This document shows, piece by piece, positions 37,896 to 39,678 of a DNA stretch of 39,702 bases. This DNA is from Flavobacterium sp. Lineage in GTDB: Bacteria; Bacteroidota; Bacteroidia; Flavobacteriales; Flavobacteriaceae. The stretch is from the NCBI GenBank assembly GCA_016787805.1, contig JAEUTY010000023.1, positions 1 through 39,702 on the forward strand. The letters run 5' to 3'. How positions within the stretch are numbered: the first letter of the stretch is position 1; each line of letters opens with the position of its first letter. Position numbers and translations under genes: made by a program. The notes under the pieces were generated by a model. It was not told the origin of the DNA and ran no database searches. It saw nothing but the letters and a program-made list of their open reading frames with translations.

Positions 37896-37936
37896 GAGGA
37901 AAGAGGAAAGACCGCTGCGCTGAAAGAGGAAAGACT
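37896..37936 (-). repeat. Inverted repeat arm downstream of the four-helix-bundle gene
   Basis: Contains one full 23-bp unit and part of another. Bases 37906-37929 are an exact reverse complement of 38375-38398 (24 bp), and pairing continues with few mismatches on both sides. It starts within the stop codon of the four-helix-bundle gene. Confidence 0.85.
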
Positions 37937-38285
37937 ACTTCAGTTTGGCGATAAATCCTGCAATCATTTTTTGAAGTTCTATGATTTTGTTTTCTAATTC
38001 GATCGTTTTTCTTGTTTCAATGTAATTGTTCATGTTGGCAATTAAAAGTTGTGTCTGCAATTCGAAAGAAGATCCGAGGCTTATATTTAGAAAATGAACA
38101 AAATGAGTATTTCCTCTATTTGAACCTTCAGCAATATTAGAAGGAATGGATACTGATGCACGATTCATTTGACTGACCAAACCATACATTTCATTTTTAG
38201 GAAATCCTAAACAAATTTTATGTATTTCCCTTGTAATTTCCATTGATAAACTCCAGATTCTTAAATTTTTAAAATTGTGATTCAT
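37935..38285 (-). CDS. Four-helix-bundle protein of the 23S rRNA intervening-sequence family
   Basis: A 116-residue protein. FKNLRIWSLSMEITREIHKI, FPKNEMYGLVSQMNRASVSI, PSNIAEGSNRG, FLNISLGSSFELQTQLLIA are hallmark blocks of the four-helix-bundle (IVP, TIGR02436-type) family encoded within intervening sequences of bacterial 23S rRNA genes. Its function is unknown; family members form pentamers, and their host sequences are cut from rRNA by RNase III. Here the gene lies not in rRNA but between thiolase and acyl-CoA dehydrogenase genes, inside inverted repeats (37896-37936 and 38332-38400). The length and frame are normal, so it is probably expressed from the operon mRNA. Confidence 0.9.
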   Translation of the reverse strand: MNHNFKNLRIWSLSMEITREIHKICLGFPKNEMYGLVSQMNRASVSIPSNIAEGSNRGNTHFVHFLNISLGSSFELQTQLLIANMNNYIETRKTIELENKIIELQKMIAGFIAKLK

Positions 38286-38331
38286 GGCATATAATTATTT
38301 TAATTGGTTTATAGTATTTTTTCTCTTTCTT

Positions 38332-38400
38332 CTTTCAGCACAGCGGTCTTGTCTCTTTCAGCGCAGCGATCTTGCCTCTTTCAGCGCAGCGGTCTTTCTT
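38332..38400 (-). repeat. Triple 23-bp tandem repeat, inverted arm upstream of the four-helix-bundle gene
   Basis: Three adjacent units begin at 38332, 38355 and 38378 (CTTTCAGCGCAGCGGTCTT-like, two or three changes among them). The unit nearest the thiolase stop (38401) is complementary to 37906-37929. There are no spacers, so it is not a CRISPR array. Confidence 0.85.
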
Positions 38401-39582
38401 CTACATCAACTCGAAGATCCCCGCACTTCCTTGTCCAGTTCCCACACACATACTCACAATTCCATATTTGGCTTTTCGTAATCGCATTTCATCAAACAAT
38501 TGCACCGATAATTTTGCTCCCGTACAGCCCAGTGGATGACCTAAGGCAATCGCACCACCGTTTACGTTTACGATTTCAGGATTCAATCCTAATTCGCGTA
38601 CAACTGCCAACGATTGTGAGGCAAAAGCTTCGTTCAATTCAATTAAATCGATATCATTCAATGTCAAACCTGCTTGTTGTAGGGCTTTCGGAATCGCTTT
38701 CACTGGACCAATTCCCATGATACGTGGTTCCACACCAGCCGAGGCAAAGTTGACCAAGCGAGCGATTGGAGTGATGTTCAATTCTTTGACCAATTCTTCA
38801 CTCATAATCAATACAAAAGCGGCACCATCGCTCATTTGAGATGAATTTCCGGCGGTTACACTTCCATCAGCTGCGAAAACAGGTTTCAATTTGGCTAATG
38901 CTTCTTTGTTAGTGTCAGCTCTCGGACCTTCATCTTTGTTCACAACATACGATTTGGTTTCCTTTTTGCCGTTTTCGTTCAAGAACGTTTGTTCTACAGT
39001 AATTGGAACAATTTGCTTATCGAATTTACCTTCGGCTTGCGCCTTTAACGCTTTTTGATGCGAATGGAACGCAAACTCATCTTGGTCTTCACGAGAAACA
39101 TTGAATTGCTTAGCCACAGCTTCTGCGGTCAATCCCATTCCCCAATAATAGTCTTCGTTTCCTTCCTTCGCCACAGCGTAATCGGGAGTTGGTTTATAGC
39201 CGCCCATTGGAATAAAACTCATGCTTTCGGCACCGCCCGCGATGATGCAATGTGCCATTCCGCTTTGGATTTTTGCCGTTGCCATACCGATGGTTTCCAA
39301 TCCTGATGCGCAATAACGGTTTACAGTTACACCCGGAACATCGGTTACTTTCAATCCCATAAGGGAAATTAAACGACCTACATTCAAACCTTGTTCGGCT
39401 TCAGGCATGGCGTTGCCCACCATTACATCGTCGATTCTTTTTTTATCAAAATCAGGAAGTTGAGCCATCATGTGTTCAATAGTTTCTGCCGCTAATTCGT
39501 CGGGACGTTTGAAACGGAAAACTCCTTTTGGAGCTTTACCAACTGCAGTTCTGAATCCTTGTACTATATATGCTGTTTTCAT
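38401..39582 (-). CDS. Acetyl-CoA C-acyltransferase (thiolase, beta-oxidation)
   Basis: A 393-residue thiolase that cleaves 3-ketoacyl-CoA with CoA in the last step of beta-oxidation. N-terminal half: RTAVGKAPKGVFR, the nucleophile Cys in VNRYCASGLETI (about residue 90), and AGGAESMSFIPMGG. C-terminal half: NEAFASQSLAV, NVNGGAIALGHPLGCTGAK (catalytic His) and CVGTGQGSAGIFELM (second catalytic Cys). It is probably the second gene of an operon with a 3-hydroxyacyl-CoA dehydrogenase outside the window. The 23-bp repeats start directly after its stop codon. Confidence 0.94.
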   Translation of the reverse strand: MKTAYIVQGFRTAVGKAPKGVFRFKRPDELAAETIEHMMAQLPDFDKKRIDDVMVGNAMPEAEQGLNVGRLISLMGLKVTDVPGVTVNRYCASGLETIGMATAKIQSGMAHCIIAGGAESMSFIPMGGYKPTPDYAVAKEGNEDYYWGMGLTAEAVAKQFNVSREDQDEFAFHSHQKALKAQAEGKFDKQIVPITVEQTFLNENGKKETKSYVVNKDEGPRADTNKEALAKLKPVFAADGSVTAGNSSQMSDGAAFVLIMSEELVKELNITPIARLVNFASAGVEPRIMGIGPVKAIPKALQQAGLTLNDIDLIELNEAFASQSLAVVRELGLNPEIVNVNGGAIALGHPLGCTGAKLSVQLFDEMRLRKAKYGIVSMCVGTGQGSAGIFELM

Positions 39583-39589
39583 GTTTTCT

Positions 39590-39675
39590 ATTTTAAATTT
39601 TAAATTATGAATTTTAAATTAGGTTTATTTTAGATGATTGAGAATCATTTAAAATTTAGAATTTATAATTCAAAA
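39590..39675. repeat. Palindromic AT-rich word array upstream of thiolase
   Basis: TTTTAAATT words on the left (39590-39620) and AATTTAAAATT words on the right (39645-39675) are complementary. They flank a small hairpin ATGATT-GAG-AATCAT (39634-39648). It fills the gap to the preceding gene. Confidence 0.55.
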
Positions 39676-39678
39676 TAA

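Follow-up and report, generated by a model that had tools for sequence, protein, structure and literature searches.

The window, by which we mean the whole stretch of DNA that was analyzed (39,702 nt), is an entire contig (G000:C21) of a Flavobacterium sp. genome of 3.23 Mb, which is assembled in 51 contigs and is 99.93% complete. In it, an intact open reading frame for a protein of the four-helix-bundle (FHB) family lies between the genes for a thiolase and an acyl-CoA dehydrogenase, on the same strand as both, and is enclosed by two complementary arms. In the order of transcription, the features are as follows.

38401..39582, minus strand: thiolase (acetyl-CoA acyltransferase), the upstream gene (PF00108/PF02803, TIGR01930)
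38324..38402, minus strand: 5' arm (in transcript sense), three copies of a 23-nt-spaced unit with AG repeats, from reading of the sequence
38370..38402, minus strand: section of the 5' arm with the best pairing to the 3' arm, 33 nt, 94% complementary, closing the predicted fold
37935..38285, minus strand: FHB gene, encoding a 116-aa four-helix-bundle/23S_rRNA_IVP (S23) protein (PF05635, TIGR02436)
37902..37934, minus strand: 3' arm, complement of the 5' arm, adjoining the FHB stop codon
36074..37864, minus strand: acyl-CoA dehydrogenase, the downstream gene (NF058590, 723.6 bits)

An initial annotation of this DNA had placed a gene of the four-helix-bundle family between thiolase and acyl-CoA dehydrogenase genes, and this is confirmed by the profile matches of the neighbors and of the gene itself (PF05635, 118.5 bits against a cut-off of 33.8, E 1.9e-34; TIGR02436, 112.4 bits against a cut-off of 24, E 1.1e-32). 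It had also pointed to at least 24 exact base pairs flanking the gene, and positions 37906-37929 are indeed the exact reverse complement of 38375-38398. The arms extend further, to 37902-37934 and 38370-38402, giving 33 nt of 94% complementarity around a 435-nt loop. The repeated unit is present in three copies on the 38324-38396 side, with a sub-spacing of 7 nt discernible by eye within it, and because the 5' arm holds three copies, the 3' arm can pair also with the other two (89% each). The 5' arm begins within the thiolase stop codon, and the acyl-CoA dehydrogenase gene begins 37 nt past the 3' arm. In the predicted fold of the transcribed strand, the arms close around the gene at -122.7 kcal/mol, compared with -101.6 ± 5.0 kcal/mol for shuffled sequences (z -4.26), none of the 100 shuffles being as stable. 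The inverted repeat has a score of 27; since only 0.2% of 642 mismatched flank pairs get to 20, a chance origin is excluded. When the whole window was scanned for inverted repeats (score of at least 16, loops up to about 700 nt), the FHB-flanking repeat and one AT-rich hairpin were found and nothing else. This hairpin, with short repeats, 31-nt arms, and a 27-nt loop, is gene-less and lies at 39589-39677, immediately upstream of the thiolase gene.

The protein family has been described as functionally uncharacterized (PMC11270868). By sequence, the sole relative of the window protein in the PDB at E ≤ 0.01 is 2gsc (E 4.5e-16), an entry with 5 chains that is described as a homopentamer (PMC4990558). 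Among the 25 closest orthologue pairs (19 sequences), dN/dS lies between 0.03 and 0.09 in 24 and is 0.18 in the other. Over 87 unsaturated pairs, which include many distant ones, the median is 0.28, a value that may be shifted by the L016 row, which is possibly a fragment of a second FHB gene and is in none of the 25 closest pairs. The FHB protein is under purifying selection, and what is conserved in the gene is its protein; the arms drift.

The finding exceeds one locus: a cassette design recurs around this functionally uncharacterized family. In two samples of best matches, which are non-random and include orthologues, flanking inverted repeats with a score of at least 13 were found at 57 of 108 FHB genes (52.8%, the other 51 scoring lower), compared with 2.8% of 642 mismatched pairs of upstream and downstream flanks, and at 36 of 76 loci of a second, named set, compared with 9 of 456. 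Control open reading frames from the window and 20 control stretches reached this score in 8 of 326 cases, one of the eight being the window FHB gene itself. The first sample was drawn from the source genome, 61 genomes of the genus, and 118 of the phylum, including 40 extra places taken in listing order (three near contig ends were skipped), and it used 108 of 114 FHB matches, those without 150-nt flanks or containing N being excluded. Among its rows, L090 repeats the gene of L063 (the pair scores 11), and the second L025 row comes from the same broken gene as the first; in the L092 and L089 rows the gene end is misplaced past the stop or an N run and the downstream flanks are wrong. The second L025 row, L092, and L089 all score 9 or less. 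Rows flagged with stops are L004, L015, L036, L092, and L107, the flag of L092 being an artifact of its misplaced end. The second set used 76 of the best 80 named loci, with the short-ORF loci L168, L178, and L220 retained, and is mostly from Bacteroidota, with a few metagenome-assembled genomes (MAGs) labeled Lambdaproteobacteria, Nitrospirae, Clostridia, Ignavibacteriae, Desulfosarcina, and others. One FHB gene (L182) lies on a contig labeled Methanophagales archaeon, where contamination of the MAG is possible.

Folding of flank, gene, and flank together gave a median of 35.5 inter-flank pairs with the true downstream flank versus 13 with a swapped one, and the true flank gave the lower fold energy in 77 of 108 cases. 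FHB-family genes number up to 16 per genome, and the source genome has 11 with PF05635. Alongside the ten others, short-period repeats of unrelated sequence can be seen by eye, most of them with reverse-complement repeats on the opposite side; the upstream side of L011 is lost to a contig end. Eight of the ten genes scored in this genome, with that of the window included, reach 13 (L002, L004, L005, L007, L008, L009, L010, and L012), the two below being L001 and L006. A TATAAGCC/TATATGCC-like motif was seen by eye ahead of the start codon in most FHB genes of the source genome (L001-L010); as a general feature, a TATAAGCC-like motif ahead of the start was rejected, being found in 10.7% of upstream versus 7.9% of downstream flanks over the sample. 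Near one of these genes, at L009:547-693(-), there is a match to the Flavo-1 RNA (RF01705, 47.4 bits).

The arm sequences differ between loci, each having its own repeats, mostly of 7 nt. Autocorrelation within the arms is 0.525 at a lag of 7 and 0.513 at a lag of 14, with 0.374 at a lag of 8, and elsewhere between lags of 3 and 13 it stays at 0.25-0.32; by eye, the period of 7 is evident also in most orthologue arms at the thiolase-dehydrogenase site. The first arm is richer in AG than in CT at 47 of the 57 loci of the first sample that score at least 13 and at 29 of 36 in the second set, with the reverse in 3 of 57 and 3 of 36. This AG-first polarity is identical when read from either strand and so does not separate DNA from RNA models. 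The words of which the arms are made do not follow the protein closely, in that FHBs 40-60% identical at different sites share no more of them than do less similar FHBs, and specific pairing of arm with protein was therefore rejected. Only the class of at least 60% identity shares more (a mean of 5.44 shared 8-mers, a fraction of 0.337), and this class may include truncated contigs or missed homology of neighbors.

The arms and the FHB gene fill the spacer from the upstream stop codon to the next start codon. At loci scoring at least 13, the 5' arm begins a median of 7 nt past the upstream stop (within 15 nt either way in 38 of 55), the 3' arm ends a median of 12 nt ahead of the next ATG, and the loop is of 369-503 nt. 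Because the arms abut the genes in this way, the upstream stop and downstream start would adjoin at the foot of the stem if it forms. Sense placement between two co-directional genes, as in the window, is likewise found generally: where both neighbors were called, the gene is in sense to both at 97 of 103 loci of the first sample and 68 of 73 of the named set, and is opposite to both neighbors at 2 of 103 and 1 of 73. In the control stretches, 168 of 292 gene triples are on the same strand. The sense bias suggests that transcription through the cassette from the upstream gene matters.

The thiolase-dehydrogenase site has a varied history. An FHB gene lies there in 22 of the 61 genomes of the genus sample, with internal stops in three. 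The other 39 were searched, 37 have the dehydrogenase gene, and 30 of these were read. Among the 30, an FHB gene of the same kind is present in one (L117), one of another subfamily with other repeats in two (L122 and L129), and a truncated one in a further genome (L127). The remaining 26, as grouped by eye, comprise five with relics of arm or gene or with a hairpin of like style that has no gene (L120, L125, L140, L142, and L145), seven with plain spacers of 27-38 nt, seven with a CCCCC..GGGGG hairpin (L124, L130, L131, L136, L139, L141, and L143), four with a TGTCATTCCGACGAAGGAG-type hairpin (L126, L133, L137, and L146), and three with other sequence. On these comparisons the spacer looks like an insertion hot spot. 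In G040 and G032, an FHB gene lies upstream of thiolase rather than after it, as judged from contig coordinates (L118, near the first base, and L084), and so another junction made by the same genes may also take a cassette.

Over the 22 orthologues, the match between a locus's own arms is on average better than that with arms of other species (14.6 versus 11.1, 0 of 20000 permutations). In 18 of the 22, however, a downstream arm from some other species outscores the locus's own, in 3 more it ties, and at 5 orthologue loci the arm match is equaled by shuffles at least 9 times in 200.

A second site is known from G039 and G028, in which FHB genes lie between dapB and lepB (L032 and L049). Their proteins are 72-90% identical to the thiolase-site FHBs of seven other genomes, their arms have the same repeat style as those of the seven, and in the tree they fall in a clade with the seven thiolase-site rows (support 94/99), the order inside the clade being unsettled; the very long branches of rows L016 and L001 carry no conclusion. 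At the thiolase site itself, both genomes have an arm scar only (L145 and L120). At L049, the arm appears to run over the dapB stop codon. In 30 genomes, the dapB-lepB interval holds an FHB gene in 2 and a spacer of 15-220 nt without one in 27, and 1 showed no lepB. Some of the 27 contain a hairpin or sequence resembling an arm remnant (L255, which is in the source genome, L251, L253, and L273); the cassette may thus be old at both sites, and movement in either direction is possible. The spacer at L255, of 182 nt, has a tandem ACAATTAG-type repeat and a TTCTATTTTCTATTCTCTC stretch resembling a 3' arm, with no FHB gene, and is perhaps a relic of another cassette. Portability had been proposed in the initial annotation, and the related genomes bear it out, the site being occupied, empty, scarred, or otherwise filled, with an alternative site in addition. 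The contrary pattern that it had named, a gene always present in relatives with the complementary arms absent, is not what was found: the arms recur, and the gene is missing in 26 of the 52 genomes read at the thiolase-dehydrogenase site.

The intervening sequences (IVSs) of 23S rRNA, with which the locus had been compared from the outset, are an apt comparison. In Coxiella burnetii, a 428-nt IVS in helix 45 is closed by a terminal stem of 28 bp and is cut out by RNase III (Warrier et al. 2016, PMC4990558). Its S23p ORF, in sense, is preceded by tandem GACAGAT heptamers, the RNase III site being at the first of these; IVS distribution is sporadic (PMC4990558). The supposed IVS-type anatomy of the window cassette is borne out by complementary arms (33 nt, 94%) that form the terminal inverted-repeat stem in the predicted fold, by a sense S23/FHB ORF, and by Coxiella-like heptamers in the 5' part, a period of 7 being general to the arms and the window unit being 23 nt. 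The differences lie in host and in the state of the gene. The Coxiella element resides in rRNA and is excised by RNase III, whereas that of the window, whose processing is a prediction, has thiolase and acyl-CoA dehydrogenase genes as neighbors, and no rRNA match was found in the 11 FHB loci of the source genome (about 1.5 kb on each side, less at L011). By report, the Coxiella ORF is in decay and is probably untranslated (PMC4990558), whereas the window FHB ORF is conserved. The window cassette has the build of an IVS without being one of the rRNA IVSs.

The further supposition that such elements are described only in rRNA has to be narrowed. A 23S_rRNA_IVP gene lies between cmr3 and cmr2 in cas operons (PMC3936711), and genes of the same family adjoin guanylate kinase genes in F. 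columnare (PMC5524665); the passages on these genes do not mention flanking inverted repeats, and the open-licence papers searched yielded no account of free-standing FHB genes with inverted heptamer arms. IVP ORFs are also present in rRNA insertions of CPR bacteria (PMC11270868), and an IVP-annotated transcript appears among the differentially expressed ones of F. psychrophilum (PMC5787105).

Other systems share parts of the design. The Avd/bAvd proteins of diversity-generating retroelements have a homologous four-helix-bundle fold, the homology being suggested for 4DWL and 2GSC (PMC10053308), and the bAvd Pfam match of the window FHB is weak (20.5 bits, below the cut-off of 40). Dependence on a reverse transcriptase, as in a diversity-generating retroelement, was rejected, as PF00078 (RVT_1) is lacking in the source genome and in 9 more of the 21 FHB-bearing genomes searched (10 of 21 in all). 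REP/REPIN hairpins are linked to a transposase. They are likewise dispersed intergenic hairpins (PMC3116915), the window family having one gene-bearing copy in its genome, but their protein family is different and the FHB cassette contains no transposase. TAACTGA heptamers form intergenic tandem direct repeats, also in five Bacteroidetes (MacGregor 2015, PMC4679880); unlike the FHB arms, they consist of a single fixed heptamer and are almost always direct rather than inverted, and no FHB gene is mentioned for them (0 matches to S23, 23S, or helix bundle).

The anatomy, its recurrence, the sense placement, the occupied, empty, scarred, and alternative sites, and the selection on the protein are all read directly from the DNA, and we consider it probable that we are dealing with a cassette of the rRNA-IVS kind that resides between two cistrons of an mRNA, its parts being a 5' AG-repeat arm, a sense FHB gene, and a 3' arm complementary to the first. 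The two arms would close, in the transcript of the operon, to a stem of about 30 bp with the FHB gene in its loop; the upstream stop codon would then stand next to the start codon of the downstream gene, whose translation could therefore continue. RNase III is encoded in the source genome; its cutting of the stem is plausible and would free an FHB RNA of roughly 0.45 kb. Excision of the gene, or unequal levels of thiolase and dehydrogenase, which the initial annotation had proposed as outcomes, would be hypothetical effects of such a cut. The FHB protein, ring-forming in its solved relative, would most likely act on nucleic acid and possibly on its own repeats, maintaining or moving the cassette, the last being the least certain step. 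Points that count against the reading as a whole are the lack of a G-U bias among arm mismatches, the 51 of 108 FHB genes with scores under 13, the orthologues whose arms are matched as well or better by those of another species, and the decay reported for the Coxiella ORF. A broader proposal, which we put forward tentatively and regard as rather doubtful as a whole, is that S23/FHB cassettes constitute a widespread RNA-level intercistronic class in which the stem would make the insertion nearly silent for translation, RNase III would release the gene RNA, and an FHB ring would read the AG repeats of its own arm, keeping and moving the cassette although it encodes neither a reverse transcriptase nor a transposase. 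On this view most of the family would reside in mRNA, and the rRNA IVSs would be its rare members in rRNA.

A serious contender, if at somewhat less than even chances, is that the arms are the terminal inverted repeats of a mobile element acting at the DNA level, the RNA stem being a by-product and the sense orientation being kept only for read-through transcription. The mismatches between arms are DNA-like, G-U pairs numbering 28 versus 30 A-C in the first sample and 25 versus 29 in the second set. With no excess of G-U over A-C in either, no claim of compensatory RNA evolution is made; either the arms are kept alike as DNA, through origin or conversion, or selection on the RNA is too weak to see. 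A DNA element would also fit the finding of one FHB clade with like arms at two sites, both dapB-lepB genomes being only scarred at the thiolase-dehydrogenase site. Yet the 0.5-kb cassette contains no transposase or other enzyme, its arms vary by locus, unlike ordinary transposon ends, and antisense copies are nearly absent (2 of 103 and 1 of 73). This sense bias points in the direction opposite to the wobble result, toward a role of transcription.

For autoregulation of the FHB protein, the system for comparison is TRAP. An FHB ring would bind to its own message at the AG repeats of the 5' arm, compete with formation of the stem, and tune expression of the operon, and the regular AG spacing of that arm (AG over CT in 47 of 57 and 29 of 36), the conservation of the protein while the arms drift, and the 5 chains of the relative 2gsc, the described homopentamer (PMC4990558), all accord with this. 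The AG-first polarity, being the same on either strand of a hairpin, gives no pointer to RNA by itself, however, and the lack of extra shared arm words among FHBs 40-60% identical at different sites counts against such recognition; we judge this alternative unlikely.

The repeat of the window is also dispersed. A 20-nt core gave 23 matches in the source genome (up to 3 mismatches) at about 8 intergenic places, compared with 0 for a reversed control, and seven of these places have no PF05635 match and look like gene-less hairpins or repeat remnants (including L042-L045, L047, and L247). One more match, L046, appears to lie inside a gene and is probably due to chance. That the arms are merely a species-specific dispersed hairpin repeat which flanks the FHB gene by accident, as the single FHB-bearing copy and the presence of other hairpin families in the same spacer of relatives might suggest, is largely refuted and very improbable, because FHB genes in general show the flank enrichment, and do so with many repeat sequences unrelated to one another, flanking repeats are rare around other genes (8 of 326), and the arms of relatives at the thiolase-dehydrogenase site are built of different repeats.

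With more than 25 years gone since rRNA IVSs were discovered, their function and origin were still called unclear (PMC4990558). Should ordinary operons carry the same cassette, as the reading as an mRNA-resident cassette holds, then processing, movement, and protein function become testable by knock-outs, free of ribosomes. It would also give a setting to a functionally uncharacterized protein family and bring to light an aspect of operon structure that gene annotation misses. In a distant genome of the phylum, an FHB gene (L092) is followed immediately by another thiolase-like gene, read in the same frame beyond the stop, and this is possibly a second association of FHB genes with those of beta-oxidation.
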